Below are positions 14,258-49,971 of a stretch of 64,000 bases of DNA, in pieces. Position 1 is the first letter of the stretch; every line of letters begins with the position of its first letter. Made by a program: the position numbers and the translations under genes. The notes beneath the pieces were generated by a model that saw only the letters and a program-made list of their open reading frames with translations, made no database searches and was not told the DNA's origin. The DNA is from Cryobacterium sp. PH31-AA6. GTDB lineage: Bacteria; Actinomycetota; Actinomycetes; Actinomycetales; Microbacteriaceae. Location of the stretch: positions 1 to 64,000 of the forward strand of contig NZ_JASISS010000015.1 in NCBI RefSeq assembly GCF_030063195.1. The letters are read 5' to 3'.

Positions 14258-14644
14258 TCAGCTCCCGAGGGGCCTCCCTTGACGAAATCCACCTACATTT
14301 CGTGGGAAGGGCTCACCGTTGTTGAACTCGATAGCGAGCCGTGCGAGTTCACGCTCAAGCGCACCTTCAACTAGGGCAGCCATTGAGTTGTATCCGCCTT
14401 CGTAGCCTGCAGTTCGGAGGACTGCAGTTTCTGCCCGTTTCTTGAGCGAAGTGCGGAGCCCGAAAGTGACTGCCTTCTTCTCGTCACTCTCAGTGGACTC
14501 GGCCACTGATGTGCTGGGGGCGAGGTTCGTTGATGGAACGTCCGGCCCACGTTCCATGGCGGGTGGCGTGCGGACCTCTTCGACCTCGGGTACCAGCTTG
14601 ATTGGGCTTGCGCTTCCTGGTCGTCGACGGGTGGGAACGGTCAT
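14258..14644 (-). CDS. Small ParB-like centromere-binding partition protein
   Basis: The 128-aa product starts at ATG 14644, which overlaps the parA stop by 4 nt; the longer in-frame ORF inside parA is ignored. The N-terminal half is disordered (Pro/Ser/Glu). The C-terminal half (FGLRTSLKKRAETAVLRTAG, then a MAALVEGALERELARLAIEF helix pair) resembles a ribbon-helix-helix-type DNA-binding fold, as in small ParB/ParG/ParR-type partners encoded after parA. The likely binding sites are the repeats upstream of parA. Confidence 0.75.
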   Translation of the reverse strand: MTVPTRRRPGSASPIKLVPEVEEVRTPPAMERGPDVPSTNLAPSTSVAESTESDEKKAVTFGLRTSLKKRAETAVLRTAGYEGGYNSMAALVEGALERELARLAIEFNNGEPFPRNVGGFRQGRPLGS

Positions 14645-15522
14645 GCGGCCATCCCCTTGTCGCCCAGAAAGCGGGCTAGGTAGGTTCGAGCGACGGCGTC
14701 GTAGAGGGCGACGGTCTTGCGTCCGTTGCGGTCGCTCCAGTCGGACAGTGAAACGGCCGCTGCGTCGGCCTCTGCAAAGCGTGACCATTCGGGGATATAG
14801 GACGGGTTGAGGAGCTCTGACCCATCTGACATCTTGACGACGCCACCGAGGTTCCAAACGAGATCTCCGAACTGACCGCGCAGCCCCTCGATTTGGTAGT
14901 CGTGTTCGATTGTGGCCTTTCGTCGCGTTATGACGATGCCACCGACGGTGAGGGTCGGGTTTGCGATGTCGATCGCGTGACGAGTGACGAAGTCGTTCAC
15001 CCGGATCGCTGCCTCGACGGAATCGTAGTTGGGGTCAGTTGGGATGATGATGGTGTCAGCGGCCGCCATTGACATCTGGACCAGGTGCCCCAGGTCTGGC
15101 CGAGTGTCGATGAGGATGATGTCGTAGTCGTCGGTCCATCCTTCAAGAGCCTTCTGGAGTCTCCTCACGGCTCCGATGACTCCGGCTTCTGTTTCGCGGT
15201 TGATGAGGTCAAACCGTGCCGGCAGTACGTCGATGTTTTCTGCTTCTGGTGTTGGTAGCCCTTCGGGGCTGGTCCAGCCGCAGGCGACCACAGCCCCCTC
15301 CCCCGCCCCTGACTGGTCGGCCTTGATGACCTCGGACATGGTGGGGATAGGTTCGTTCGCGTCCCATTCGATGCCGAGGCGACGTGTGGCGTTCGCTTGT
15401 GGGTCCATATCCACGACGAGAACCCGTTGACCCGCTCGAGCGAGTGCAGCGGCGAGCTGTACGGTCAGCTCCGTCTTGGATACGCCGCCCTTGTTGTTCG
15501 ATATGACTGCCGTGTGGGCCAC
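14641..15522 (-). CDS. parA: ParA partition ATPase
   Basis: The product is about 293 aa. The deviant Walker A is NNKGGVSKTE near the N-terminus, in the context AVISNNKGGVSKTELTVQLA. Walker A' is VVDMDPQAN and Walker B is IILIDTRPD. I choose GTG 15522 (VAHTAVISNNKGG) because GAGAGG lies 7 nt upstream and canonical ParAs begin just before this strand; the extension to 15594 would run through the repeat array. It segregates the plasmid together with the small ParB-like protein. The A-type 'GGVSKTE' (S for G) is unusual but occurs in ParA relatives. Confidence 0.9.
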   Translation of the reverse strand: MAHTAVISNNKGGVSKTELTVQLAAALARAGQRVLVVDMDPQANATRRLGIEWDANEPIPTMSEVIKADQSGAGEGAVVACGWTSPEGLPTPEAENIDVLPARFDLINRETEAGVIGAVRRLQKALEGWTDDYDIILIDTRPDLGHLVQMSMAAADTIIIPTDPNYDSVEAAIRVNDFVTRHAIDIANPTLTVGGIVITRRKATIEHDYQIEGLRGQFGDLVWNLGGVVKMSDGSELLNPSYIPEWSRFAEADAAAVSLSDWSDRNGRKTVALYDAVARTYLARFLGDKGMAA

Positions 15523-15555
15523 GATTCTTGCCTCTCGGGGAATGGTCGACGAATA

Positions 15556-15695
15556 CAATACTTGTTTGTATTTACAGTGTTGATTGTTTTCCAAGTATTG
15601 CTTTGATTGCGTTCATTGCATTGATCGACACGCCAGAAAAACAATACTTGTTTGCTATGCAATAAATGCAATACTTGTTTGTCTTGTAAGTATTG
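15556..15695. promoter_or_regulatory. parS-like iteron array and par operon promoter
   Basis: Three exact copies of CAATACTTGTTTG begin at 15556, 15642 and 15669. Inverted copies of its core (CAAGTATTG) lie at 15592-15600 and, with one change, at 15687-15695. The array is much more AT-rich than its surroundings and ends ~30 bp before parA. Repeats in this position usually serve as both the partition centromere and the operator for the ParB-like protein. A role as replication iterons cannot be excluded. Confidence 0.75.
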
Positions 15696-15775
15696 TTAAT
15701 CCGGCCCAACCGAACCGGAACTGCCTCACCGACAGAGATTCCGCCAGGAGTTGCCCCGGGCTCTGTCCTGCGAAA

Positions 15776-15834
15776 CCGGGGGAGTGTGAGGGGGTCACCC
15801 CTCACCGGCTGGCCCACCAGGGGGCCAGCCGGTG
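15776..15834 (-). repeat. Motif B copy 1: double hairpin after the DUF3846 gene
   Basis: In gene sense, 8 nt after the stop codon, CACCGGCTGGCC pairs perfectly with GGCCAGCCGGTG. A second hairpin, GTGAGGGG with CCCCTCAC, follows, then the constant ACTCCCCC. The second hairpin and tail recur after two other genes, while the first hairpin has a different sequence each time. There is no T-tract, so simple intrinsic termination is doubtful. Confidence 0.65.
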
Positions 15835-15841
15835 CTTTCGG

Positions 15842-16261
15842 CTAGATGTTGCGGAGCATGCTGACGACGGTGGGGAAGGGGGACAGGCTCTCCACGAGGC
15901 GGTCGACGGTCCCGGCATCGGGCTTCTGCGCGAGTGCCTGCTGGATTCGGGCGAGCTGGGCATCGGTGAGGCCGACGGTTTCGCCGTCTCGGGTGACGCT
16001 GACGGCGATGGCGGTGCCGAAGATGACGGTGGGGGAGCCGAGTCGGTGGGCGAGGACGGTCGCGGGCAGGTTCAGGGTTGACCCGTTGATGAGTCCTTCG
16101 TCGTCGACGAAGAGGTCGATGTCGTCTTGCAGGCCGACGACGTCGAACATGCGGCAGCCGATGGCCGCGACGATGTCCGCCCCGATGCTGGCCTCGTTCA
16201 CGTCCAGGACGCGGATGGTTTCGGTCGGGTTGATCTTGATGCTGCGAATGGTGGCGTTCAT
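15842..16261 (-). CDS. DUF3846-type accessory protein
   Basis: The product is 139 aa from ATG 16261 (RBS GAGGGAGAGG). The segment FDVVGLQDDIDLFVDDEGLI, with LNLPATVLAHRLGSP, is the characteristic core of DUF3846 proteins found on plasmids and phages. Function is unknown. The C-terminal ~40 residues (LTDAQLARIQQALAQ) form a helical extension. The gene is framed by motif A upstream and motif B downstream, the same arrangement as two other genes here. Confidence 0.8.
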   Translation of the reverse strand: MNATIRSIKINPTETIRVLDVNEASIGADIVAAIGCRMFDVVGLQDDIDLFVDDEGLINGSTLNLPATVLAHRLGSPTVIFGTAIAVSVTRDGETVGLTDAQLARIQQALAQKPDAGTVDRLVESLSPFPTVVSMLRNI

Positions 16262-16280
16262 GGTGTGGGTCCTCTCCCTC

Positions 16281-16472
16281 AAAACAACTTGTTTTTTGCC
16301 TTTCCGGCAAGAGAGATCGATTGAGAGCGGGAGGCCCGGAGTGGCCGGTTTCGGGGCGAAATAAGGGAGCTTGCGACCGCGTCCCGTAACTGGGCACGCA
16401 GGGCCGGGAGCGAACTATGATCGGCTGCCGGAAAGGAAAAAAACGGGGTCAGAACGTGCCGCGCAGCGGCTC
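16281..16472 (-). promoter_or_regulatory. Motif A copy 1: structured leader of the DUF3846 gene
   Basis: In gene sense it has a 5' hairpin GCCGC-TGC-GCGGC, then TTTTTTTCCTTTCCGGCA, ~110 nt of GC-rich hairpins, and the closing TGCCGGAAAGGCAAAAAA. The outer arms pair over ~17 positions. A GGCC..GGCC hairpin inside corresponds to GGGC..GCCC in the other copies. The start codon is 20 nt downstream. Near its 3' end is a small AAAACAA-C-TTGTTTT palindrome (16281-16295). Candidate cis-regulatory RNA or single-strand promoter. Confidence 0.65.
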
Positions 16473-16581
16473 AAAGAAAGGTTCTTCCCGGCGCAGCCGG
16501 CCCCGCCAGGGAATTCTTGACAGGTGCCCATAGAGCTATCGGGGGGTTGAATACCGGGCGGGGCGGGGAAAAACTGGACGG

Positions 16582-16938
16582 ATGCGACGAATCTCTTACA
16601 GCGGGGCGTCTTTCCTGACTTCGGATGCCATCGCTGACGCGCTCTTTCAACTCGTCACCGCCCTGGGCATCAGTCAGACCACGGAAACCCTCAACTTGCC
16701 GGCGATCAATGTGACCGGGAAAACGATCATCGTGAAACTGATCGTGGGGCCGTGGAGTGAGCTGATCAGCGTCCCCGAGGATTCCCTGTGGGACGAGCCG
16801 AACATCACCGAGGTCCTCGCGTTCCTCCGCGGCCGGGTGCTTACTCTCCAGCAGCCCAAACCCTCGCCCGCGTACTCGGAGATCGCGACCACCGATTTCG
16901 ACAGCAGAGACTTCACCGACCCAGGCCGCACCCCCTGA
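16582..16938 (+). CDS. Hypothetical protein
   Basis: The 118-aa product is mixed alpha/beta with a strand-rich middle (INVTGKTIIVKLIVGPWSEL) and a charged, proline-rich tail. I do not recognise a family. It is transcribed toward the DUF7882-type gene 75 bp downstream and against the surrounding motif A/B cassettes. A TTGACA at 16517 could be a -35 box, but the -10 is poor. Confidence 0.6.
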   Translation: MRRISYSGASFLTSDAIADALFQLVTALGISQTTETLNLPAINVTGKTIIVKLIVGPWSELISVPEDSLWDEPNITEVLAFLRGRVLTLQQPKPSPAYSEIATTDFDSRDFTDPGRTP

Positions 16939-17013
16939 CCACCCCCTGGCACGGTGCGTGCGGCTCTCAGTACCCTAGGTCAGGTCCACGTCCACGATCG
17001 AGGAAGGTCCCTC

Positions 17014-17334
17014 ATGGGAAGACTGACCTACAACTCGAGCATGAAGGTCCATTTCTCTGACCGCACGCTCGCGCACTTGAAAAGCGTCATCAATACCAAA
17101 CTCCAACGCAAGGAGGGATTTCATTTCACGTGGGCTGATGACCCCGCGGAAGGCGGCGGCCGGAACACGATCTGGATCCACCCCGGCATCCCTCTGATCT
17201 TCACCTTCACCAGCTCCACCCCGCCCCTGCTCAATACGCGGTGGCTCGAGGCTCTCATCCGAACGGCCAATACCGTCACGGGCCTCGAAATCGTCCCCGA
17301 GCCACCCCGTCCACCCACCGCGGCAGCCTCCTAA
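17014..17334 (+). CDS. DUF7882-family protein
   Basis: The product is 106 aa from ATG 17014 (GAGGAAGG upstream). The start MGRLTYNSSMKVHFSDRTLA and the FHFTWADDP, RNTIWIHPGIPL segments are typical of short Microbacteriaceae proteins, some mislabelled as ATP-dependent DNA ligases. It has no ligase motif. Function unknown; it is useful mainly as a taxonomic hint. The longer frame from 16954 has a composition-poor extension and is not used. Confidence 0.8.
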   Translation: MGRLTYNSSMKVHFSDRTLAHLKSVINTKLQRKEGFHFTWADDPAEGGGRNTIWIHPGIPLIFTFTSSTPPLLNTRWLEALIRTANTVTGLEIVPEPPRPPTAAAS

Positions 17335-17377
17335 ACTCTTCACCGCACCAGTTGGCTGCCGCCACATCGGCCAGGTG

Positions 17378-17746
17378 TCACAGTGCGGAGCGCGTATCCG
17401 GGATGGTCCCGGCGAGCATCCGCTCGAGCTGGTCCATGTCGTCCGGGCCGCGCCCGCCGAGCAGAGCCGGCAGGAACCGGGCCAGGGCTGCGAACCCGGC
17501 CTCCTGGTCCGGATACACACCGAGGGAGACCAGGTGGGTGTCTCCGCGGGACATTCTCAGTTCCAGGCACGGGTAGTGCTCTTCCGCGGTGATGCCCATT
17601 CGGACGGCGTCTGTGAAGGTGTTGCTGTCGAGCTGCTCCTGGATGGAAACGATCTGGTCCAGGTTGACCCAGATGTCGTCGGAACCGGCCACGGGCCGGG
17701 AACGGTCGTGACCCGGGGTGGTGACGGCGAGTTTGATGAAGCGCAT
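17378..17746 (-). CDS. Hypothetical protein downstream of motif B copy 2
   Basis: The product is 122 aa from ATG 17746, chosen because MRFIKLAVTT starts a folded-looking domain; the upstream extension (to 17878) runs through motif B. It contains DIWVNLDQIVSIQE and LRMSRGDTHLVSLGVYPDQE, an all-beta then helical layout. No family recognised. It follows the 220-aa gene across motif B, so it may be cotranscribed with it or separated from it by that element. Confidence 0.65.
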   Translation of the reverse strand: MRFIKLAVTTPGHDRSRPVAGSDDIWVNLDQIVSIQEQLDSNTFTDAVRMGITAEEHYPCLELRMSRGDTHLVSLGVYPDQEAGFAALARFLPALLGGRGPDDMDQLERMLAGTIPDTRSAL

Positions 17747-17834
17747 GAGATGTCCAATCAGTAGGGACCTCGACGCTAAAACGCTGCCCACCGTCCCCGG
17801 CCGCATCCCGGCCACCTGTGGAGAGCCCGGTGCA

Positions 17835-17894
17835 CCGGGGGAGTGTGAGGGGCGCGCTGGCCCCTCACCCGTGGCCACCCGGAAGGGTGGCCAC
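17835..17894 (-). repeat. Motif B copy 2: double hairpin after the 220-aa gene
   Basis: In gene sense, about 10 nt after the stop, GTGGCCACCC-TTCC-GGGTGGCCAC is a perfect hairpin. GTGAGGGGC...GCCCCTCAC and ACTCCCCC follow. The first stem shares no sequence with copy 1 or 3 yet keeps perfect pairing. Confidence 0.65.
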
Positions 17895-17903
17895 GCAGCC
17901 CGG

Positions 17904-18566
17904 CTATCGGCGGGCCGTGGCAGCTAGGGCGATTTCCAGTGCCCGATCCTCACTCATCCCGATGGGACGAATAACGTTTCTGCTATACCGTTTGGTCTTC
18001 TTGACCCGGGTGGTCCCGGTGTATCCGGCCGGGCCGTCCTGCGCGGGCCCGTAGAGCGGGTGGACCAGCAACCAGTGGACGAAGGGCAGCGCCGGGGCCG
18101 CGACCCTGCGGCGAAAGCGCGGGGAGGGATTCGTGCAGAGGGCCCAAAACCGGGTTGCCTCGCCGCGAGCTGCGAGCCGGTCCGCGACCGGGATCGGGGC
18201 CACCCGGGGCGGGTGCATGAGCCTAATCGTGGAGACGTGCACGTACGCCTGCAGCGCGGAATCATCCCGGGCCGGGATCTCCTCCGCCAGCTCCCGGACA
18301 GCGCGCAGGATGCGGGCCGTGATCCGATCGGTGCGGGTGTCGTGGGGGTTCGTGCGCATCCACTCCGTGGCCTCGATCACACAGCAGAGCAGGTTCCACT
18401 CGAAGCTGTAGAAGCGCAGCAGAGAATCCACATCCCGGTTCCACCTGCTACCCCGGTGCGGGTTTACGGTGTCGTAACGGGCGAAGAAAGCGGTGCCGGC
18501 TTTCCGGTCCGCTGCGATCTGGTCACTGCTGCGCTGGGGCCGAACCTCGACAAGAACCTGGGACAT
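17904..18566 (-). CDS. Hypothetical cassette protein (220 aa)
   Basis: It starts at ATG 18566, preceded by GAGCGGAGAG. The product is basic and Trp/Arg-rich, with a helical core (SLLRFYSFEWNLLCCVIEAT) and an RVKKTKRYSRN stretch near the C-terminus. No family recognised; not an obvious ArdA or other anti-restriction protein. It is the second gene with motif A ~21 nt upstream and motif B just after the stop. Confidence 0.7.
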   Translation of the reverse strand: MSQVLVEVRPQRSSDQIAADRKAGTAFFARYDTVNPHRGSRWNRDVDSLLRFYSFEWNLLCCVIEATEWMRTNPHDTRTDRITARILRAVRELAEEIPARDDSALQAYVHVSTIRLMHPPRVAPIPVADRLAARGEATRFWALCTNPSPRFRRRVAAPALPFVHWLLVHPLYGPAQDGPAGYTGTTRVKKTKRYSRNVIRPIGMSEDRALEIALAATARR

Positions 18567-18587
18567 GGAAACTCTCCGCTCAACTGA

Positions 18588-18768
18588 TTTTTTTGCCTGT
18601 CTGGCAAGAGAATCGATTGAGAGCGGGAGGGCCGAAGAGCCCGGATTATCAAGGGAAATAAGCCCGCCAGGGCGCGCTCGATAAACCGGGCACGCAGGCC
18701 CGGAAGCGAACTACGATGACCGGCCAGACAGACAAAAAAGTCCTCAACCAGAACAGCCGCGAAGCGGT
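18588..18768 (-). promoter_or_regulatory. Motif A copy 2: structured leader of the 220-aa gene
   Basis: In gene sense, hairpin ACCGC-TTC-GCGGC, then TTTTTTGTCTGTCTGGCC, and on the far side GCCAGACAGGCAAAAAAA. Compared with copy 1 the arm changes from CTTTCCGGC to CTGTCTGGC and the opposite arm changes to match. CCGGGC..GCCCGG and GGGC..GCCC hairpins lie inside. The sequence after it, CAGTTG, is shared with the other copies, and the start codon follows 21 nt later. Confidence 0.65.
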
Positions 18769-18822
18769 CCACAGGCCGGCACCGCCGGCACCGTCACTGC
18801 CGGCCTGGGGCCGGTTTCCCCC

Positions 18823-18881
18823 GGGTGGGGGAGTGTGAGGGGGCGCCGCCACCTCACGGCCGGCCCCGGGTGGGCCGGCCG
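18823..18881 (-). repeat. Motif B copy 3: double hairpin after the DUF3560 gene
   Basis: In gene sense, 11 nt after the stop, CGGCCGGCCC pairs with GGGCCGGCCG. GTGAGG...CCCTCAC and ACTCCCCC follow. The second hairpin is slightly weaker than in copies 1 and 2. Confidence 0.6.
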
Positions 18882-18892
18882 CTGCGGCGGGG

Positions 18893-19828
18893 CTACTCGG
18901 GTCGCACGAGCTGCTGAATCTCGGCATACGGGGCGGTATCAGTCCACGTGTAGCCGGTGGTGACGCTGACTGTTTTCAGGTTGGCGCGCACGACTTCGCG
19001 CCACTGGCCGCGGATCTTCACCCGGTCGCCCTTCGTCACGGTGGAACGGTCGTAGCCGGTGGCCGTGCCGCTCTGGACCTGTGCGGCGCGCACGGCCTCC
19101 CAGTAGGCGATCTGGTCGCGCTTCTCGTCAAGGTGCGGCGCAAGGCGCTGTGCGCGGGCCTGCGTCTGCTCCTCGGTGGCATCGATGTAACCGTGTGTGT
19201 CGTCGTAGCACTGTGCGGTGATGCGGCGTTCGAGCGTGCGGAGCTCAGCGCCCAACGCCTCGATGCGGTTGGCCACGGTCACCGGGCTGTACCGGGCATT
19301 CGTGGTGTGGGTGGCCGCGTCCGCGCGGGCCTGGGCAGTGGCGGCGTCCGCGCTGGCTTCCACGGACTTCCGCATGGCGTTATCTGCTTGGGCGATCGCA
19401 TTCCGGTGGCGGGCCTCGGAGTGGTGACCCACCTTGATCGGCTCCCCGCCCTCGGGCAGACGATGGATCGCGGTACGGGCTGTGGCCCAAGCGGCCTCGT
19501 CCGCGGTGGTCTTCCGCTCAGCCTTTGCGGCCAGGGCGTCGACCCGGTCGGCCTGACGCCCGATCTTTCCGGCCTCGACCTCGGCGGTCGTGCGGTGGGC
19601 GCTGTCGATGTCGGTTTCCACCTCGAACCCGGCGGCTACCAGGGCCGCCTGGGTGCGGGTGATGGTGTGCAGTTTGGGCAGATGGTCGCGGGACTGCGGG
19701 ACGAACCAGGCGCTGATGCTGCGCCCCCACCGCCAACCAGCAGCCTTGAGTACGTCGGCGGTGCCGTCGCCTCGGCTGGTGCCCGCGATCATCGTTCCGG
19801 CTTCGTGAGTGTGGGTGATGGTGAGCAT
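18893..19828 (-). CDS. DUF3560 domain protein
   Basis: The product is 311 aa from ATG 19828 (GAGGGG upstream). The N-terminus LTITHTHEAGTMIAGTSRGD is the typical opening of DUF3560 proteins, followed by GWRWGRSISAWFVPQSRD and long charged helices with repeated AHR/ADR segments. The C-terminal ~60 residues form a small beta domain (KGDRVKIRGQWREVVRAN). DUF3560 is common on plasmids and phages; function unknown. Second gene of cassette 3, 19 bp after the 50-aa gene and followed by motif B. Confidence 0.8.
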   Translation of the reverse strand: MLTITHTHEAGTMIAGTSRGDGTADVLKAAGWRWGRSISAWFVPQSRDHLPKLHTITRTQAALVAAGFEVETDIDSAHRTTAEVEAGKIGRQADRVDALAAKAERKTTADEAAWATARTAIHRLPEGGEPIKVGHHSEARHRNAIAQADNAMRKSVEASADAATAQARADAATHTTNARYSPVTVANRIEALGAELRTLERRITAQCYDDTHGYIDATEEQTQARAQRLAPHLDEKRDQIAYWEAVRAAQVQSGTATGYDRSTVTKGDRVKIRGQWREVVRANLKTVSVTTGYTWTDTAPYAEIQQLVRPE

Positions 19829-19847
19829 GAGTGTTTTTCCCCTCGGT

Positions 19848-20000
19848 CTAGGCGAAGCTGTCGGCGTAGCGGCTGGCGGTGCAGGTTTCGCCCGGCTGGG
19901 TATCAACGGCCCCCTCTGAGCGGCATCCGCTGCAGGCGCACCCGTCCGCGTACCGCTCCCGGGGATAGGTGTTCTCGTGGCTGTAATCCGACTCATCCAT
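19848..20000 (-). CDS. Small cysteine-containing protein (50 aa)
   Basis: It starts at ATG 20000 (AAGAGAAAGAG upstream). The product has a CACSGC cluster and a third Cys near the C-terminus, with RYAD occurring twice. It may bind a metal. It is the first gene of the cassette-3 operon, just behind motif A copy 3 and before the DUF3560 gene. No family recognised. Confidence 0.6.
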   Translation of the reverse strand: MDESDYSHENTYPRERYADGCACSGCRSEGAVDTQPGETCTASRYADSFA

Positions 20001-20028
20001 GGGGTTCTCTTTCTCTTGTGACCAACTG

Positions 20029-20210
20029 TTTTTTTGCCCTATCTGGCACGAGAAATCGATAGCGACCGGGAGGGCCGAAGTGCCCGCAGTGCCGGGCGAA
20101 ATAAGCCCGCAGGGCGCGTCCGACAATGCGGGCAACGCAGGCACGAGAGGGAGCTACGGTGAAACGCCAGAAAGGACAAAAATGCCCAGCGAACAGCGCC
20201 GCGCAGCGGC
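20029..20210 (-). promoter_or_regulatory. Motif A copy 3: structured leader of the 50-aa/DUF3560 operon
   Basis: In gene sense, hairpin GCCGC-TGC-GCGGC, then TTTTTGTCCTTTCTGGCG, and the closing GCCAGATAGGGCAAAAAAA, with GGGC-TTATTTC-GCCC and GGGC-ACTTCG-GCCC hairpins inside. The outer stem is less perfect than in copies 1 and 2. CAGTTG follows and the start codon lies 28 nt downstream. Confidence 0.6.
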
Positions 20211-20488
20211 TCCATCACGCTCGTAACGGCGTCAGCCGTGGCTTCAGAGTGAAGTCACTCTGATATCACCGGCCGCGAAGCGGTTCCACTTCGGTGAAAG
20301 GGGGACGGCGGCCGGACCGCCGTTTCGCCTCATCCCCAAGGGGCGTGTACCTGGTGCCACCAGGCTCCGACCTTCGTGCCGGCGCCGGGGGAGGGGAGGA
20401 CGACAGTGAGGTGAGTGGGGGACTTTCGAGGTCGGGCCCACCCAGGCCGGCCCGAGATGGGTGCGGACGATTGCGCGCGGATAGCGAC
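20211..20488. other. Intergenic region with inverted repeats
   Basis: TCAGAGTGA-AG-TCACTCTGA (20244-20263) is a perfect 9-bp-arm inverted repeat. Another CCGC-GAA-GCGG hairpin like those at the edge of motif A lies near 20273, and a GGCGG..CCGCC hairpin near 20310. I see no reliable gene. The repeats may be operators or an eroded fourth cassette border. Confidence 0.45.
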
Positions 20489-20803
20489 ATGACGACTTCA
20501 CAGTCTGTTGCGCCGCCCGATTACCCCGGGAGTAACCGCGCTACGACCCGCTCACGACGGGGCTGGCGGCCGACGCTCGTCATCCTCGCGACGCTCCTAC
20601 TGGTCACCGTTCTCGTTGTGGGCTCCGTGGTGCTGGCGATTGTTTTCATCCCGGGTGGCCGGGATATCGCCCTGCCCGTGTTCGCTATGACGCTCGTCGT
20701 ACATGCCACTCTCATGCTGCTCACCCTGCACTGGGGTTTGCGCCGGCGGGGAGCGGCTGGCACAAGCCGCCCCATCAAGATCGCCGCTCAGTCTTTCAGC
20801 TGA
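20489..20803 (+). CDS. Small two-helix membrane protein
   Basis: The product is 104 aa from ATG 20489. It has a basic N-terminal cytoplasmic stretch (RATTRSRRGWRP), a first membrane helix (VILATLLLVTVLVVGSVVLA), a short loop with PGGRD, a second helix (VFAMTLVVHATLMLLTLHWG) and a basic tail. No family recognised. The longer in-frame extension from 20294 runs through inverted repeats and is not used. Confidence 0.55.
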   Translation: MTTSQSVAPPDYPGSNRATTRSRRGWRPTLVILATLLLVTVLVVGSVVLAIVFIPGGRDIALPVFAMTLVVHATLMLLTLHWGLRRRGAAGTSRPIKIAAQSFS

Positions 20804-20925
20804 TATCTCCAAGTGGCCCTGTTACGCCGTGTAGAGACGCAGCCACTCAATTGACAGACCGGATCGCTTTGTCCATGACGAACACCTTCCTTTCGCCGTT
20901 GCGGTCGAAGGAATGTTAGTGTGCT

Positions 20926-22765
<1,840 letters not shown>

Positions 22766-24231: not shown

Positions 24232-25088
24232 ACCATCCCGTGCATCTGAGAGTTCCCCGCGTTCTCAGTATTGCGGGAACCGACCCCACCGGAGGGGCCG
24301 GCATCCAGGCCGACCTGAAGAGCATCTCCGCCAATCACGGATACGGCATGGCCGTCGTCACCTGCCTCGTCGCCCAAAACACTCACGGCGTTCGAGCGAT
24401 CCACACACCCCCGCCGGAATTCTTGTATCACCAACTTCGCGCCGTCAGCGACGACATCACGATCGACGCCGTCAAGATCGGAATGCTAGGCAACACGGTC
24501 ACGATCGACATCGTCGAGTCGTGGCTCAGCCACGCCCAGCCACCAATCATCGTGCTCGATCCTGTCATGATCGCCAGCAGCGGGGCGAGGCTCCTCGATC
24601 ACGATGCCGTCTCAGCAGTCACCCGGTTGCTCAACCGAGTTGATCTGGTTACTCCAAACCTCGCGGAACTCGGCGCTCTCCTTCAAGAACCGCCGGCCAC
24701 CGACTGGGCACACGCGGTGGCTCAGGCGAACCGCCTGTCCGAAATTCACGAGGTGATCGTTCTGGTGAAAGGCGGTCACCTGCACAGCCCGCAATCCCCG
24801 GATGCGCTGGTGGATGCTGCGGGGCGCCTCACTGGCGGCCTCGCGTTATTCGAATCGACCGCCACTCGAGTGAACACCTCGAACACGCACGGGACGGGGT
24901 GCTCCCTGTCCGCCGCGGTCGCCACACAACAAGCTCAACTCGGCGACTGGACTGCCGCCCTGACCGCCGCTAAAACCTGGCTGCAGGACAGCCTCCTCCA
25001 CGCCGACCATTTGAAGGTCGGGTCAGGCAACGGCCCCATCCACCATTTCCATCACCTGTGGGAGGCCGCTTCGGAGGGGCCACCTTAG
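24219..25088 (+). CDS. thiD: Hydroxymethylpyrimidine (phosphate) kinase ThiD
   Basis: It phosphorylates HMP and HMP phosphate to HMP diphosphate. VLSIAGTDPTGGAGIQADLK and NTSNTHGTGCSLSAAVA are the substrate and anion-hole motifs. It overlaps thiE; ATG 24219 and GTG 24228 (sharing GTGA with the thiE stop) are both possible starts. The product is ~289 aa from the ATG. A C-terminal TenA domain, sometimes fused, is absent. The 3' end overlaps the convergent MFS gene by 4 bp. Confidence 0.93.
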   Translation: MGEVNHPVHLRVPRVLSIAGTDPTGGAGIQADLKSISANHGYGMAVVTCLVAQNTHGVRAIHTPPPEFLYHQLRAVSDDITIDAVKIGMLGNTVTIDIVESWLSHAQPPIIVLDPVMIASSGARLLDHDAVSAVTRLLNRVDLVTPNLAELGALLQEPPATDWAHAVAQANRLSEIHEVIVLVKGGHLHSPQSPDALVDAAGRLTGGLALFESTATRVNTSNTHGTGCSLSAAVATQQAQLGDWTAALTAAKTWLQDSLLHADHLKVGSGNGPIHHFHHLWEAASEGPP

Positions 25089-26407
25089 GTGAGATAGCTG
25101 ATCTTGTTCGTTTCCGGTCCTGTGAACCCACCGATGAATACCAGCACACCGCCGAGGCTGAGGAGCGCTGCGATTGCCGTCTGCTGCCCGAGGGCCGCTT
25201 GCAACGTCGGCAGGTAGTAGGGGTAGAGCGCGGGGAGCACGATCGAGAGGCTGTAACCGACCCCGTACCCGCTGGAGCGAACGGCCGCAGGAAACCGCTC
25301 AGCGAGGTATGCGCCGACCGGACCGTAACCGGATACCGTCACGACCTGCAGTGCCACTACCAGCAGCACGATTATCGGAAGCCCATTCGTGTGGAATATC
25401 GCGAGGAAGGTGACCGGCGCAACCACGGCCGCGAGCACCCCAAAGCACATGAAAAAGGTGCGCCTACCCATCACCGTTGACAGCTGACCCGCCGTCAACA
25501 TCGCAACTGCCGAGACCACGGTCGCACACAGCATCGTGAACGAGATCGATTGCGCGCTCAGGTGAGAGGCAACCTGAAGCTCACCCGTCACAACGGGAAT
25601 TGCCATATCAGTCATCAGCCATAAACCACTCATCAAAACGAACACTTGCAACAGCGCGCGCCGCTGCGGGCCGACGAAGATCTCCTTGAGAGGGTTCGCC
25701 TTCTTCACTGCCTGTGTCCACGTCAACGAATCAAGGACCACGAAGCGGTAGTACACCAGCATCGCCGCAGCAAGCGCCGCCCCAAGCAGGAACGGAACAC
25801 GCCACCCCCACACGCTATACATTTCCGGGGTAAAGGTGCTGAGGAGCACCAACACGATCCCCGCGATCGTCGCGTTCGCCCAGGGAGACATCCACATGAT
25901 CAACCCGCTGGCAAGACCTCGTCGCCTCGGCACCGACCACTCCATCGCCAACGGAACAGCGGATGTGTACTCCCCACCCAGGAAGACCCCACCCAGGAAC
26001 CGCAATCCGACGATGATGAACAGGGTTCCACCACCCAGCACCGAATAGCCGGGCACCAGTGCAATGAGAAACGTCGTCAATGCGATGCCCGCGAGAGCTA
26101 TTTTCGTCATCTGCGTGCGCCCAAACCGGTCAGCAATCGGACCGAAAATTGCCGCTCCCAGGGGGCGGCCCAGAAGGGTGGCAACAAAAACCAAACCGGC
26201 GTTGCTGACCAAATTGTTCGGACCGAACACCGCACCAGCCGCTGGAGTCAGGGCAATAACTGGCAGGAAAATATCGAACTGATCAACGAAATTTCCGAAA
26301 ATGCCACCGCGAACAGCGCGGCGGACAGCGGCCGGCGCTGGGGAACTTCGCCCATCGGCGTGAACGAGGGCAAGCGCCTGGTTAGCGGGCTGGACGGAAC
26401 TATGCAC
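25085..26407 (-). CDS. MFS transporter, probable thiamine or precursor importer
   Basis: The 440-aa product has about 12 membrane segments. The loop 2-3 motif (GPIADRFGRTQMTKIALAG) and GGEYTSAVPLAMEWSVPRRR after helix 5 match the metabolite:H+ symporter branch of MFS. It sits directly behind its own TPP riboswitch, so its substrate is probably thiamine or HMP/thiazole (inference from regulation, not sequence). The start is GTG 26407, ~9 nt after the riboswitch. It is convergent with thiD. Confidence 0.9.
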   Translation of the reverse strand: MHSSVQPANQALALVHADGRSSPAPAAVRRAVRGGIFGNFVDQFDIFLPVIALTPAAGAVFGPNNLVSNAGLVFVATLLGRPLGAAIFGPIADRFGRTQMTKIALAGIALTTFLIALVPGYSVLGGGTLFIIVGLRFLGGVFLGGEYTSAVPLAMEWSVPRRRGLASGLIMWMSPWANATIAGIVLVLLSTFTPEMYSVWGWRVPFLLGAALAAAMLVYYRFVVLDSLTWTQAVKKANPLKEIFVGPQRRALLQVFVLMSGLWLMTDMAIPVVTGELQVASHLSAQSISFTMLCATVVSAVAMLTAGQLSTVMGRRTFFMCFGVLAAVVAPVTFLAIFHTNGLPIIVLLVVALQVVTVSGYGPVGAYLAERFPAAVRSSGYGVGYSLSIVLPALYPYYLPTLQAALGQQTAIAALLSLGGVLVFIGGFTGPETNKISYLT

Positions 26408-26414
26408 CGAAACT

Positions 26415-26506
26415 CACTTCCTTCGCCGGCATTACCCGGACAGGTTCAACGGTCGAAGCTGCGTCAGCTCCCTCTCAGCCCCTGCATCAGGACTCCCGTG
26501 TGGATG
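26415..26506 (-). promoter_or_regulatory. TPP riboswitch controlling the MFS gene
   Basis: Minus-strand sense reads GGGGCTGAGAGGGAGCTGAC, then GACCGTTGAACCTGTCCGGG and TAATGCCGGCGAAGGAAG, the same core blocks as upstream of thiC. The start codon follows so closely that the ribosome-binding site lies inside the terminal stem. Confidence 0.95.
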
Positions 26507-26554
26507 ATCACCACCATAGTGCTCACCAGAACGCATCGACCACCCCAGCGTTCA

Positions 26555-39102: not shown

Positions 39103-40857
39103 GTGATCGACTGGAAAGCCCGCATCATGACCGGGCTCCTCGCCGTCCTCGCGGCCGCCGGCCTCCTCGTGGCCGTGCACGTCGGCGCGATGATCACCCC
39201 CACCGGCACCCTGTATCCGTGGAACCCGGCCGCGTTGGCCGGGGGCTTCCTGTTCCGGGACGCACCGTGGCCGCCCGCCGCAACCTGGACAAGCCTGGTC
39301 GCCCTGATCCTCGCGGTGGCCCTGTTCGCATTCATCCTGGCCAAGCAAGCCCAGTGGGCGTCGACCAAGCGCAACAACGTCGCGCTCCGGCACATGGCCA
39401 CAACCCGGCAATCCGCCGTGCTGCGCTCGAAGTTGCGGGCCAAGGAAGCCGCGCAGCTGCACCCGGCCGCGGTGAACCTGCCTCCGGGGGAGCGGGTCGG
39501 CCGCCTCGTCGGGCGCGGGAACCGGTGGGTGTATCAGGGGTGGCGGGACCTGGGTGTGTACGTGTTCGGCACCGGCCGCGGCAAAACATCCGCCCTCGTG
39601 ATCCGGCACATGCTCGAAGCCCCCGGCGCGGCCATCATGACGTCCAACAAAGTCGACGGCGTTCGCGAAACCCTCGCCGGGCGCGCCGAACACGGGCAGG
39701 CGTTCATCTTCGACCCCAACCGCATCTACCGCCTCGACCCGCAGCCTGATTTCGTGTTCAACCCGCTCGAGTACATTCGCAGCGCCGCGGACGCCCGGGA
39801 GCTCGCCGCGATCTTTGAAGCCTCCACCCGGAAGGCTTCGGACCGGGGTGGGGATTCCCAGTTCGATACCGCCGGGCGGGACATGCTCGCGTACTTCTTC
39901 TACGCCGCCGCCCTCGAGCACGAACCCCTGTCCCAGGTGTTCGCGTGGATTGCCCGGGCCGAGGGGTACGACGTGCAGCAGATCCTCGCCCGGCACGGGA
40001 AAACCGGGCCATCTTCCACCATCGAGGGCATCCTGAGCTGGCCGGACAAAACCAAGGGCAGCGTCTACGCGACCGCGCAGCGGATGGCGTCCGCTCTCGC
40101 TGACGACGACCTCCTCGCCTGGACCGATACGACCGGGGTCCGCCGGTTCGACCCGGCCGCGTTCATCACCAGCACCGACACCCTGGTGCTCCTCTCCAAA
40201 GACGGTGAAGGATCCGGTGGTGCCATTCTCACCGCCCTCATCCGTGCGATCTGCAAAACCGCTGAGACGGCCGCGCAGCGAAACGGCGGCCGCCTCCCGG
40301 TCCCGCTCGTGATGGAGCTCGACGAGTGCGCGAACATCGTCCGCTGGCCCGAACTGCCCTCGGTGTATTCGTTCTACGGGTCGATGGGCATCATCCTCAA
40401 CTCCTACTTCCAATCCCGCGCCCAAGCCATCGACGCGTTCGGGAAAGACGGCTGGCAGACCCTCTGGGACGCCGCCGCCACCCGGGTCTTCGGTGGCGGA
40501 TCCGGCGACGACGACTTCCTCCGTTCCCTGGCCGCCCTCATCGGTGAACACGACGAAATCACCTACGGCAGCTCCACCGGCAAAGACGGCCAGCTGTCCA
40601 CCTCCACCAACACCCGCAAGGTCAACACCCTCGACATCGCCGCCCTCGGCTCCCTCCCCGAATGGCGCGCCATCGTCTTCAGCTCCAAATGCCGACCCGT
40701 CATGGTCAACACCGTCCCCTGGTTCCGCGACAAAACCCTCACCACCACCATCAACCGCACCCAAATTAGAACCGCGAACCCCAGGCCGGAACCGGTGCCG
40801 GTGCCGGTGCCGGTGCCGGACGACACCATTCCCGCGGAGGCGGTAGCCCATGGCTGA
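39103..40857 (+). CDS. VirD4/TraG-type coupling protein
   Basis: The 584-aa product has two N-terminal membrane helices (to residue ~85), Walker A VFGTGRGKTSALV near 155 and Walker B PLVMELDECAN near 404, with LNSYFQSRAQ as the conserved sensor helix. It links the relaxosome to the channel. The start is GTG 39103 with AAGGAG upstream. The C-terminus ends in a PVPVPVPVP run encoded by four CCGGTG hexamers (40792-40815), a slippage-prone tract. Confidence 0.93.
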   Translation: MIDWKARIMTGLLAVLAAAGLLVAVHVGAMITPTGTLYPWNPAALAGGFLFRDAPWPPAATWTSLVALILAVALFAFILAKQAQWASTKRNNVALRHMATTRQSAVLRSKLRAKEAAQLHPAAVNLPPGERVGRLVGRGNRWVYQGWRDLGVYVFGTGRGKTSALVIRHMLEAPGAAIMTSNKVDGVRETLAGRAEHGQAFIFDPNRIYRLDPQPDFVFNPLEYIRSAADARELAAIFEASTRKASDRGGDSQFDTAGRDMLAYFFYAAALEHEPLSQVFAWIARAEGYDVQQILARHGKTGPSSTIEGILSWPDKTKGSVYATAQRMASALADDDLLAWTDTTGVRRFDPAAFITSTDTLVLLSKDGEGSGGAILTALIRAICKTAETAAQRNGGRLPVPLVMELDECANIVRWPELPSVYSFYGSMGIILNSYFQSRAQAIDAFGKDGWQTLWDAAATRVFGGGSGDDDFLRSLAALIGEHDEITYGSSTGKDGQLSTSTNTRKVNTLDIAALGSLPEWRAIVFSSKCRPVMVNTVPWFRDKTLTTTINRTQIRTANPRPEPVPVPVPVPDDTIPAEAVAHG

Positions 40858-42774: not shown

Positions 42775-45700
42775 TCATCGGAGCGATGTCAATCGGATCG
42801 TGATTGTGCGCGCCTCGGGACGGAGGATGTGATCGGGCCACACGTCCGGACCGCACGCGCGCGAACCCAGCCCGTGCTGAGCGGCATCCAGCCAGAGGTA
42901 TACCCGGTCGGACTCAGGCAGGTCGTGCGGATGCGCGGCCGCGGCCACGTCGGCAGTCGTGTGGCGGCGGAGAGTGAAGCCAGGCAGCCGTCCGCGGCCA
43001 TCTGGCATGGCCTCAATCTTCAGCCAGGGGGAGCCGCCTTCGGAGAGGATCAGCTCCCGAAATTCGCTATGGTGGCCACTCTCTTGTGGGCGGGCGTAGT
43101 CAACCACCAATCCCGTCAGATCGGACTGATAGCGTCCGACGTGCGCCGAGCGGCGGCTGTCGGGGTAGGACTCCCGTTCCCCCGCACCGAACCACTCAGC
43201 CTGGTCGACGGTCGCCGGGAGCGCAAAACGCACGCCCAGACGCGGCCAGTGGATGCGCCAGCTCCCGGTGGGATTCATGGAGACGGTGAGTAGGGCGGAG
43301 CCATCCTCATCCGACCAGCGTTCATCGACCAACAGGCCCTCCCGTGCATCTGCCGCCGAGTAGCGCAGGCGACGACGCGCACCACCCTGCGCGACACCCT
43401 CGGTGCGCCCCATAAGGCGATCCAGGCCCGCCCGCCGCCACAGTTCGGCCGACGAGGGGGCGGGAACGCCAAACCCGTTGTTCGCCCACGGGTCCCTAGA
43501 GTCGTAGCTTCCGAAATCACCGGTGACGTTGCCGCCGTTGTCGTTGTCCGTCGGTGCTCGCCAGAGTTCAGCGAGCGGTCCCGAGACCGGCAGGCCCGCA
43601 AGAGCTGATAGCTGGCCTCCGTCGAAGCGGACGAGGGAGGTGTTAGGTGCCGCATCGGTCTGGCGCTGCCCTGTGTGAGCCGGCAACGGTGAGGAGAGCC
43701 TGTGCTGGGCCGTTGCGACGACGTGTCCAGCAGCAGCCCAAGCTACATCGGACGCCAGCACCGCCTCCACGGTCAGCCAGTCTTCCCCGGCCGGTGTGGC
43801 CACTGCGGGGGTGAACACCGGCAGCGGCACGGTGGCGGATGAACCAGCTTCCACGGTGAAGGGCAGGGTCAGCTCGCCGCGCTCGATCACATACCCATGC
43901 ACCGTCCTGGTCCACCGGACGAGAAAACCCGACAGGTCGACAGAATGATGACGATTCTCGACGGCAACGCCATCGGCGGAAAAGTGAAACCGTATCGGAG
44001 CGACGATGTGCTTCCACTCGTGCAGGGAAGGCGAGGGCGTTCCGTCAGAGAGCACCATGCCGTCCATGATGAAATTCGCGTCGTGCACGGGCTCACCGAA
44101 GTCGCCACCGTAGGCGAAATATTCGGTGCCGTCGGGGGTGCGGGTGCGGAGGCCGTGGTCGCGCCACTCCCACACAAAACCCCCGTGCAGGCGCGGGAAG
44201 CGATCGACCAGGTCTTCGTATTGATCGATCGCGCCGGGGCCGTTGCCCATGGCGTGGGCGTACTCGCAGAGCAGGAATGGTTTCGAGCGCTGCTGAGCGG
44301 ATTCTGCTGCCGAACAATTCAGCAGCACGGATGCATCGTCGTCCTGGCCGATCGCTCGCGTCTCGGCAATGGTGGAGTACATCCGGGAATACACGTCGGT
44401 GTACGCGCCTGCGTGGTCACCCTCGTAGTGAACCGGCCGTCCGGGGTCACGCAAGCGCACCCAGTCGGCCATCTGGGCAAGGTTTTCGCCGGTTCCCGCT
44501 TCGTTCCCGAGGGACCACAGCACGATGCTCGGGTGGTTCTTGTCACGTTCGACCGTGCGCTCGATACGGTTTAGGTAGGCGTCTCGCCAATCGGGGTCGT
44601 CGCTCGGATTGCCCGACCACTCGTGGGGGTCGCCCGGTTTGTGAAAGGCGTGGGTTTCAAGATCGTTCTCCAGGATGACCCAGAAGCCCAGTTCGTCCGC
44701 CAACTCCAGCAGGCGCGGATGGGGTGGGTAGTGGCTGGTCCGGATGGCATTGACGTTGAACTGCTTCATCTGGGCCAAGTCGGCGCGGGCAAACTCCTCG
44801 TCGAATACTCGGCCACGGTCGGGATGCGTCTCATGTCGGTTGACTCCATGGAAGACGACTCGGCGGCTGTTGACGAGGAAGCGATCGCCGTCGATCCGCA
44901 CTGAGCGAAACCCTATCCGCACCGTTATCGCCTCCATGGGATTGGATACGATGGCGTCGTACAAGCGCGGGTGCTCAGCGCTCCACGGATCGACCTTGGG
45001 GACCTGGACAACGTCGACATCGTCGGCCGTCTGCCAGGTTCTGTCGATGCCGAGTTCGGCGACGACGAGGCGTACAGGGAATTCGGCCCCGCGCACCTCG
45101 ACCTCAAGGGTGCCAGCTGGGTCGTGGTAGCCGGCCTGCAGCCAAAGGTCTTCGATGCCGCCGCGAGGCCGCACCTGCAAGGTCACCGAGCGGAAGATGC
45201 CGGGTAGCCACCACTGGTCCTGATCTTCCAGGTAGCTGGCGGCCGACCACTGGTGCACCCGCACGACGATCAGGTTGGTGCCCGCATGCAGTAGGTCGGC
45301 GACATCGAATTCCTGGGCCAGGCGGCTGCCACTGGCCACACCGACTTCGACCCCATTCACCCAGACCTTGTAGCGTGACTCGACGCCCTCGAAACGCAGG
45401 GCGACACCATCCGCACCAGCCCAGGAGCCTGGGATCTCAAAGCTGCGCCGGTAATCGCCAGTGGGATTGGCATCGGGCACGAACGGCGGGTCCAGCGGAA
45501 AGGGCAGCTGAGTGTTGGTGTAAATCGGATGACCGTAGGCACCGTTACCCTCCAGCACCCAGTGAGCGGGCACCGAAATGGTGTCCCAACCCGAGTCGTC
45601 GAAATCGTTGTCCGCGACGGCCTCAGCGGACTCTCCCGAGGGGAGTACCGATTCGGCTCCGGGGGCGCCTGGCGCACCGGCCAGCAGCCGGAAGCGCCAA

Positions 45701-45807
45701 TCGCCGTCGAGGGAAAGGGTCGGCGCATCCGTTCGAAGCCACGATCGCGGAGCCCGGTGCGCGCCTGATCCCGGTGTGGTGTCGGTTAGGTACGTGTTCG
45801 TCTGCAT
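42775..45807 (-). CDS. lacZ: Beta-galactosidase (GH2, LacZ type), cytoplasmic
   Basis: The product is ~1010 aa from ATG 45807; the extra N-terminal 38 residues of the longer frame overlap the galM-like gene. It has an N-terminal sugar-binding domain (TQLPFPLDPPFVPDANPTGD), acid/base E in WSLGNEAGTG (near 433), nucleophile E in LLCEYAHAMGN (near 514), and the C-terminal small-chain domain (WPRLGVRFALP, WFGAGERESYPD). It hydrolyses beta-galactosides after uptake. No signal peptide. Full length, as E. coli LacZ. Confidence 0.96.
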   Translation of the reverse strand: MQTNTYLTDTTPGSGAHRAPRSWLRTDAPTLSLDGDWRFRLLAGAPGAPGAESVLPSGESAEAVADNDFDDSGWDTISVPAHWVLEGNGAYGHPIYTNTQLPFPLDPPFVPDANPTGDYRRSFEIPGSWAGADGVALRFEGVESRYKVWVNGVEVGVASGSRLAQEFDVADLLHAGTNLIVVRVHQWSAASYLEDQDQWWLPGIFRSVTLQVRPRGGIEDLWLQAGYHDPAGTLEVEVRGAEFPVRLVVAELGIDRTWQTADDVDVVQVPKVDPWSAEHPRLYDAIVSNPMEAITVRIGFRSVRIDGDRFLVNSRRVVFHGVNRHETHPDRGRVFDEEFARADLAQMKQFNVNAIRTSHYPPHPRLLELADELGFWVILENDLETHAFHKPGDPHEWSGNPSDDPDWRDAYLNRIERTVERDKNHPSIVLWSLGNEAGTGENLAQMADWVRLRDPGRPVHYEGDHAGAYTDVYSRMYSTIAETRAIGQDDDASVLLNCSAAESAQQRSKPFLLCEYAHAMGNGPGAIDQYEDLVDRFPRLHGGFVWEWRDHGLRTRTPDGTEYFAYGGDFGEPVHDANFIMDGMVLSDGTPSPSLHEWKHIVAPIRFHFSADGVAVENRHHSVDLSGFLVRWTRTVHGYVIERGELTLPFTVEAGSSATVPLPVFTPAVATPAGEDWLTVEAVLASDVAWAAAGHVVATAQHRLSSPLPAHTGQRQTDAAPNTSLVRFDGGQLSALAGLPVSGPLAELWRAPTDNDNGGNVTGDFGSYDSRDPWANNGFGVPAPSSAELWRRAGLDRLMGRTEGVAQGGARRRLRYSAADAREGLLVDERWSDEDGSALLTVSMNPTGSWRIHWPRLGVRFALPATVDQAEWFGAGERESYPDSRRSAHVGRYQSDLTGLVVDYARPQESGHHSEFRELILSEGGSPWLKIEAMPDGRGRLPGFTLRRHTTADVAAAAHPHDLPESDRVYLWLDAAQHGLGSRACGPDVWPDHILRPEARTITIRLTSLR

Positions 45808-45838
45808 GGGGGCAATCCTTACGTCGTCGTCAGGGGAG

Positions 45839-46744: not shown

Positions 46745-46753
46745 CGTGATCCT

Positions 46754-49693: not shown

Positions 49694-49971
49694 ATCGCCA
49701 GACTAGAAAACCACTCCCTCCCACGGGAATAGCAGAAGAGCGGAAGTAATCTGGACATTTCTCTGATTTCGAAGATGCCCATGCGCGGTCTTGTCAGGGG
49801 AGTCGCCTGCAGCGATTCTCTCGGAGGTTGCCAGGTTGGTGACAGTTGGATTGTCCATAGTTGCGAGCTGGAACGTGCATTCACCCGTGACCTCATCGGT
49901 TACTAGCGTTGGGAAGTACTCAGGGTTGAGTGCGGAGGCGCCCTCAACTACTCACTGTCAAGAGGACACCA
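49694..49971. promoter_or_regulatory. Divergent promoter region
   Basis: This 278-bp gap between the DUF5107 operon and the exported GH2 gene contains no gene and must hold both promoters. No clear operator palindrome was found. Confidence 0.5.

Follow-up and report, generated by a model that had tools for sequence, protein, structure and literature searches.

The window analyzed here, 64,000 nucleotides (nt) of Cryobacterium sp. PH31-AA6 (positions 1 to 64,000 of contig NZ_JASISS010000015.1, forward strand), contains three cassettes at 15776-20210, in each of which a structured element (motif A) precedes one or two genes and a second structured element (motif B) follows them. A sequence-only reading of the DNA had proposed these cassettes, and they are present as claimed; a search of the genome locates motif A in these three places and nowhere else. 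That reading assigned everything to the minus strand: the cassettes and their genes do lie there, but the pairing of motif A is better on the template strand of the genes, that is, the plus strand of the window, and we consider motif A a probable promoter that works on single-stranded DNA.

15776-15834, minus strand: motif B copy 1, a variable hairpin followed by GTGAGGGG..CCCCTCACACTCCCCC; core 15779-15792
15842-16261, minus strand: DUF3846 gene (PF12957, E 1.1e-15), behind motif A copy 1
16290-16444, plus strand: motif A copy 1, template-strand hairpin upstream of the DUF3846 gene; covariance model 158.3 bits
17835-17894, minus strand: motif B copy 2; core 17838-17851
17904-18566, minus strand: gene for a 220-aa protein without a Pfam family, behind motif A copy 2
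18587-18740, plus strand: motif A copy 2, template-strand hairpin upstream of the 220-aa gene; covariance model 149.7 bits
18823-18881, minus strand: motif B copy 3, between the DUF3560 gene and motif A copy 2; core 18828-18841
18893-19828, minus strand: DUF3560 gene (PF12083, E 3.6e-16), behind motif A copy 3 after the 50-aa gene
19848-20000, minus strand: gene for a 50-aa protein, the first gene after motif A copy 3
20029-20183, plus strand: motif A copy 3, template-strand hairpin upstream of the 50-aa and DUF3560 genes; covariance model 149.5 bits

The spacings originally reported also stand. The cores of motif A copies 1, 2 and 3 end 28, 20 and 28 nt ahead of the start codons (20-28 nt had been claimed), and motif B, placed 8-11 nt past the stop codons, lies approximately 8-12 nt after 15842, 17904 and 18893, a figure that holds for the window only and takes the outer limits of motif B as first drawn. 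The longer spans first given to motif A consist of the core and a small hairpin of the GCCGCTGCGCGGC type, which stands upstream of the T-run of the motif at 16445-16472, 18741-18768 and 20184-20210.

Motif A is a family of hairpins of about 155 nt. With copy 2 as the query, blastn identifies 34 places in 15 records of the plasmid collection, with at most five in any plasmid; 14 of the records are from genera of Microbacteriaceae and one is from Arthrobacter, so that only actinobacterial plasmids are represented, and no phage record is matched by the same query. A covariance model built from 20 copies matches 67 of 398 Microbacteriaceae genomes (30 of 85 genera). The order-wide sample gives eight matching genomes in 396, six of them Microbacteriaceae (including that of PH31-AA6) and two with partial matches outside the family, and the phylum-wide sample of 396 gives PH31-AA6 alone; both samples were searched with stricter filters, by which weak matches are lost. 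The 49 sources searched in full contain 124 matches, of which 121 are nearly full length and 118 are distinct. The homologs with compensatory changes that had been called for therefore exist: the model finds the family and its pairs covary (vide infra).

The absence of a known family is borne out by Rfam, which identifies only thiamine pyrophosphate (TPP) riboswitches in the window; at E-values up to 5, its matches in 15400-20900 are at chance level and none approaches its gathering score. Among the matches listed in the literature on single-strand promoters and leading-region elements of Actinobacteria and Gram-positive bacteria, the portions considered contain no description of motif A, which does not prove that there is none; the parts considered of the paper on the Arthrobacter plasmid pA19BH1 (PMC6305408) do not mention the element.

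Two particular kinds of copy were also noted. In a subgroup (some copies in loci L065-L069 and L072), an extra leader of approximately 60-95 nt with a CCCCGTAGTT..ACCACGGGA-like hairpin precedes the start codon. At the end of a contig (L049, 15951-16068), a cut-off copy is oriented against the two full copies that the locus also has; it is below the length filter and is excluded from the orientation counts given below.

The fold of motif A is under selection. In the 44 pairs of the model, 92.0% of the cells are paired, compared with 71.7% after shuffling, and in 41 of the 44 both partners change; covariation is scored at 0.468, vs 0.145 for shuffled alignments and at most 0.081 when the structure is slid by up to three columns. 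None of 500 shuffles reaches the observed value of any of five pairing measures; kinship alone can beat shuffles, although the slid structures drop to 47% pairing or less. The cells count sequences and not evolutionary events, and the alignment was fitted to the structure being tested; when column pairs are ranked purely by Watson-Crick covariation, those at the top are mostly the same nested pairs. Thus, the earlier argument that conserved pairing reflects selected structure is upheld in the larger family, and within the window the outer arms of the copies change together as described.

Of the two strands, the template is the better match for the structure. Its fold is the more stable one in 23 of 24 copies, whether DNA or RNA parameters are used; relative to dinucleotide shuffles, the mean z values for the 24 copies are −3.74 (template) and −2.68 (sense) with DNA parameters and −5.67 and −4.40 with RNA parameters. 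Wobbles are distributed in the same sense: over 41 pairs and 118 copies, G·T exceeds A·C on the template strand by 283 to 55 (sign test across pairs, p 0.0005). When the copies are reduced to 28 representatives at 80% identity, the margin is 56 to 19 (p 0.043); in slid controls the asymmetry goes in both directions. A line of evidence separate from the wobbles is that the internal loops of the template strand contain near-invariant G·A oppositions (35·122 in 116, 36·121 in 114, 39·118 in 109, 48·109 in 101 and 50·107 in 115 of the 118 copies). Such G·A pairs can be stable; on the sense strand, the same positions would be C·T mismatches. Because the antisense strand is the better fit, a leader RNA, one of the two roles first suggested for motif A, is disfavored.

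The template strand also carries a −10-like hexamer. TAnnnT occurs at a single alignment position in the gene-distal arm in 115 of the 118 distinct copies; its first T and its A are invariant, the three positions in its middle are paired with the opposite arm, and of these pairs 27-129 and 29-127 covary. The distance from TAnnnT to the next stem is nearly fixed (5 nt in 102 copies, 6 nt in 16). The −35 position is occupied by GG[CAT]ACG in 93 of the 118 copies; the distance from this position to TAnnnT is 17 nt in 80 copies and 16 nt in 23. The sequences in the window are:

16393-16398, plus strand: GGCACG in copy 1, 17 nt before TAnnnT (−35 position); conserved, not TTGACA-like
16416-16421, plus strand: −10-like TATGAT in the gene-distal arm of copy 1, at the alignment position of TAnnnT
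18689-18694, plus strand: GGCACG in copy 2, 17 nt before TAnnnT; conserved
18712-18717, plus strand: −10-like TACGAT in the gene-distal arm of copy 2, at the same alignment position
20132-20137, plus strand: GCAACG in copy 3, at the same distance before TAnnnT
20155-20160, plus strand: −10-like TACGGT in the gene-distal arm of copy 3, at the same alignment position

In the hairpin form, the gene-distal arm takes the place of the non-template strand; as modeled, the layout would therefore be that of a promoter with its −10 region already partly open. Another strongly conserved sequence, GAAATAAG (template columns 69-76, beside the apical hairpin), has no role in this model of the promoter.

A promoter in duplex DNA is not evident on the sense strand because TAnnnT is so scarce there: anywhere within the motif, the hexamer occurs on the template strand in 121 of 121 copies and on the sense strand in 35, and outside the motif the sense strand has it in three of the 121 upstream 90-mers and in none of the 121 downstream 30-mers. 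For the upstream 90-mers, this is a modest depletion relative to random 90-mers from the same loci (approximately 10.5%) and a strong one relative to shuffles (mean 36.4). TAnnnT and GG(C/A/T)ACG could instead be the contacts of a plasmid regulator that binds duplex DNA, as the strong conservation of both sites would allow; an operator of this kind leaves unexplained the covarying pairing over approximately 150 nt, with its two-sided changes in 41 of 44 pairs, and we regard it as hardly credible. An antisense RNA, that is, a structured transcript with the sequence of the template strand that controls the mRNA, is only slightly better placed and still very improbable: its G·T and G·A pairs would suit RNA as well as DNA, but no clear promoter enrichment is found 5' of such an RNA (TAnnnT in 11 of 121, compared with 215 of 3000 random 60-mers), and the conserved TAnnnT lies within the motif, from where, in duplex DNA, it would direct transcription away from it.

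The genes that follow motif A point to establishment in a new host. A start codon preceded by a purine-rich stretch follows 116 of the 121 copies at a median distance of 25 nt; the rule used to call the starts is simple, so some are doubtful, including 15 within 10 nt. A Pfam scan of 101 of the 116 downstream proteins (15 left out, three starts corrected) identified ParB_N (19), DUF3846 (10), glutaredoxin (10), ArdC (9), DprA-like (5) and SSB (2) proteins. The genes in the window had been called typical accessory genes of mobile elements; the description understates the set, which in the relatives includes recognizable establishment genes (ParB-like, ArdC, DprA-like, SSB).

Some genes of the window have counterparts in other loci: the 220-aa protein has 49% identity with a protein behind a motif A copy in locus L004, and 50-aa genes precede DUF3560 genes at the same place in L004, L006 and L010. 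PADLOC gives nothing for five window proteins except a weak LmuB match for the DUF3560 protein (E 0.0018); elsewhere, it matches the DprA-like protein behind motif A in L051 (12533-13468) to ShosA and PsyrA. A further family, which we call MRVF, consists of small proteins that begin with MRVFIIDT or similar and accompany motif A in variable position (L074, L075, L077, L078, L079, L083, L084, L101, L102, L104-L107); in L101 and L106 the open reading frame seems to be cut short.

The same fold and the same −10 logic would serve a single-strand origin (sso or ssi), at which RNA polymerase primes the second strand and the downstream genes are incidental. Frpo, the single-strand promoter of the F plasmid, is reportedly described by Masai and Arai (1997) as doing both the promoter and the priming jobs, and several copies per plasmid could speed conversion to duplex. 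RNA-polymerase-dependent sso elements exist in Gram-positive rolling-circle plasmids (PMC4595007). Priming alone, however, needs neither placement just before a start codon, as in 116 of 121 copies, nor a functional set among the genes downstream, as many of them form; priming as the main role of motif A is unlikely.

If motif A is a single-strand promoter, its genes should be read from the strand that is transferred, and we used the relaxase gene as a guide to that strand. The relaxase gene is typically the last to enter the recipient (PMC11541004), so the transferred strand would be the template of genes that share the strand of the relaxase gene. Relaxases were sought in 33 genomes (that of PH31-AA6 and 32 of the 67 matched by the model) as matches over threshold to PF08751 or PF03432. 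The host contig (83,312 bases) carries a type IV coupling protein and a MOBF relaxase, which makes it a probable conjugative plasmid, either free or integrated.

39103-40857, plus strand: type IV coupling protein of the TraG/TraD type (PF12696, E 9.3e-25; PF02534, E 2.7e-14)
61754-64000 in the window, continuing to contig position 65563, minus strand: MOBF relaxase/helicase gene, on the strand of the cassettes; the helicase part is in the window
64349-65542 of the contig, minus strand: TrwC domain of the MOBF relaxase, beyond the end of the window

On 18 contigs with a relaxase, all 54 listed copies of motif A drive genes on the relaxase strand, as do, in a count by hand, 18 of 18 full copies on seven annotated plasmids (pA28BH2, a Mycetocola plasmid, pP27867_1, pA19BH1, pP27867_2, pCCa and pCM2). 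On these plasmid-type contigs, given the usual layout of the origin of transfer (oriT), the transferred strand would be the template of the motif A genes. Chromosome G319, with its sole relaxase match approximately 2 Mb away, is excluded from the count, and in four further annotated plasmids (L006, L007, L013 and L014) there is no relaxase within the parts examined.

Several observations weigh against a template-strand promoter that is used in this manner, the first of them from the same orientation analysis. Motif A contigs without a nearby relaxase (including L051, L055, L060, L070, L080 and L081) are outside the 54. In 12 chromosomal islands, where the relaxase matches only part of the TrwC profile, agreement with that strand falls to 10 of 20 copies; the split follows the genes, with ParB and ArdC genes on the relaxase strand in 8 of 8 cases and MRVF genes, assigned by hand, in two of 12 (the other 10 are opposite). 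Copies on both strands are present in 13 of the 39 loci with at least two full copies, including four (L007, L055, L060 and L070) in which a glutaredoxin gene is opposite to another motif A gene; the idea in its simple form leaves these loci unexplained. The discordant copies may be inactive or may work on the other strand (e.g., in the donor); alternatively, the strand model does not yet cover every case. An oriT-like block shared upstream of mobF is present in four of six aligned regions and is only suggestive of a nick site. The remaining points concern the hairpin itself. Copy 2 in the window is the exception among the 24 copies, folding slightly better on the sense strand, and six hairpins give a weak match to the model (27-49 bits) in reverse complement as well. 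The pair list comes from a template-strand model and therefore favors G·T on that strand; with a consensus derived from the sense strand, the first 24 copies have approximately 28 sense wobbles vs 19 (hand count). The covariation at 29-127 is largely the difference between two subgroups, and the hairpin has no canonical, TTGACA-like −35, with GG(C/A/T)ACG in its place.

Motif B bears on a further explanation. Its general form is a variable hairpin and then GTGAGGGG..CCCCTCACACTCCCCC; the 3' core has 45 matches in the 49 sources, each with a same-strand motif A in the same source, and for 16 of these matches a motif A copy follows 59-106 nt downstream. Of 31 cases, the sense strand gives the better fold in 10 with DNA parameters (mean energies −22.4 for sense and −22.8 for template) and in five with RNA parameters, where G·T pairs number 56 on the template and 14 on the sense strand. 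We draw nothing about its role from these energies; motif B is probably a terminator or insulator.

Motif A could likewise be an insulator or attenuator that blocks read-through in duplex DNA while expression is triggered by other means, as suggested by EGeRS1 of the Bacillus plasmid pLS20, which is GC-rich, structured, multicopy and located upstream of establishment operons (including ardC), blocks read-through and has no promoter activity in duplex DNA (PMC8708921). The small hairpin upstream of motif A, matched by a loose pattern in 111 of the 121 copies, and the motif B cores close upstream would both agree with insulation; moreover, the 13 mixed loci are easily accommodated, since an insulator has no need of one fixed orientation. 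The fixed spacing of TAnnnT on the template strand and the template bias in wobbles and G·A oppositions, however, have no role in a terminator made of sense RNA, and we judge insulation as the function of motif A to be quite improbable.

Our preferred interpretation, to which we assign a probability of roughly 70%, is that motif A is a single-strand promoter for the establishment genes of conjugative elements of Microbacteriaceae, with its hairpin on the template strand. The Frpo-type proposal made from the sequence is thereby retained in its single-strand-promoter form, for which the covariation, the wobble and G·A asymmetry, TAnnnT, the genes and the relaxase orientation on plasmids all speak. 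In the proposed mechanism, the transferred strand, the template for these genes, would enter single-stranded and fold into a long, near-duplex hairpin; the gene-distal arm would act as the non-template strand and present TAnnnT within a bubble of mismatches that is already partly open. The next stem, which terminates in an A/T tract, is 5-6 nt from the hexamer. The host RNA polymerase could then start at TAnnnT and run out of the hairpin into the gene approximately 25 nt away, and motif B would probably end the transcripts and insulate the next cassette. Synthesis of the second strand would remove the hairpin; because it vanishes in the duplex, and no duplex promoter is evident on the sense strand, expression would be early and transient.

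A more elaborate version, which we offer as a tentative proposal and think rather unlikely as a whole, holds that motif A is an independently evolved actinobacterial single-strand promoter and that its copies form a distributed entry regulon, with one promoter per gene and motif B as insulation; in the islands, the strands would be divided, with ParB and ArdC genes read from the transferred strand in the recipient and MRVF genes from the retained strand in the donor.

Enterobacterial plasmids have documented single-strand promoters, and how Gram-positive establishment genes are switched on at entry is only partly known. A compact family of 118 distinct, covarying copies with a conserved −10 provides a defined, testable model for a possible start of RNA polymerase on folded single-stranded DNA, and motif A may serve as a marker for establishment genes of unknown function (the DUF3846, DUF3560, 220-aa and MRVF families).

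The surroundings of the cassettes contain other features. A gene for a ParA-type ATPase lies downstream of them:

14641-15522, minus strand: ParA-type ATPase gene (AAA_31, E 4.2e-35)

Immediately upstream of parA, an AT-rich tract (15552-15695) with three repeats around CAATACTTGTTTG is perhaps a partition site or operator. Two plus-strand open reading frames (16582-16938 and 16954-17334, the second a DUF7882 protein) run against the cassettes between the first and the second. Beside the cassettes, a TPP riboswitch (20926-21034, plus strand) heads an operon that, judged by eye, resembles thiC and other thi genes; a second (26401-26509, minus strand) is ahead of the open reading frame at 25085-26407. 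Farther along, a block of carbohydrate cargo (42775-52014) encodes beta-galactosidase-type glycoside hydrolases and a DUF5107/TPR (tetratricopeptide repeat) protein.

Of the known systems, the sso elements of rolling-circle plasmids and ICEBs1 resemble motif A in being single-stranded hairpins, some of them recognized by RNA polymerase; they differ, by description, in being sites for priming the second strand and not gene promoters (PMC4595007). EGeRS1 is similar in location and structure: it is also multicopy, structured and GC-rich, is located directly before the ribosome-binding site of establishment operons in a Gram-positive host, and has no evident duplex promoter. It is longer (420-750 bp, compared with approximately 155 nt), which sets the two apart by description. 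Its authors, who call its mechanism unknown, argued against a single-strand promoter on the ground that it is the non-template strand that is transferred; the geometry that we infer for motif A on plasmid-type contigs is the opposite, and motif A keeps a −10-like site. The same paper describes p576, in which the establishment genes are switched on by way of a repressor that stays behind (PMC8708921).

The analogy that we favor is with Frpo1 and Frpo2 of F, whose single-stranded forms fold into stem-loops with −10 and −35 boxes and which are needed for early expression of the leading genes (PMC9849209; PMC11541004). As controls we used two 360-nt regions of F, one preceding ssb and one preceding the gene at 64032, which we take to be Frpo2 and Frpo1, respectively, on the basis of the first of these papers; they also fold better on the template strand (−82.2 vs −75.2 and −87.1 vs −78.2, DNA parameters). 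Homology was not detected: the best match of motif A model R1 to the F leading region has 11.5 bits (E 0.18). Motif A also differs in its length (approximately 155 nt vs more than 300 nt in the folded F regions), in having a −10 without a canonical −35, in its actinobacterial hosts, and in usually having a separate hairpin for each gene or short operon, many of which are followed by motif B. Agreement with the relaxase strand, from which a reading of the genes from the transferred strand would follow, is uniform on the 18 contigs (54 of 54) and divided in the 12 islands (10 of 20), and orientations are mixed in 13 of 39 loci. What motif A does share with the Frpo/ssi elements of F and ColIb-P9 is a long template-strand hairpin upstream of leading-region genes, with a −10 rebuilt in the hairpin in 115 of 118 copies; in F, these genes include ssb, a ParB-family gene and an antirestriction gene, much like the motif A set. 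As we read it, motif A is analogous, and not detectably homologous, to the Frpo of F.

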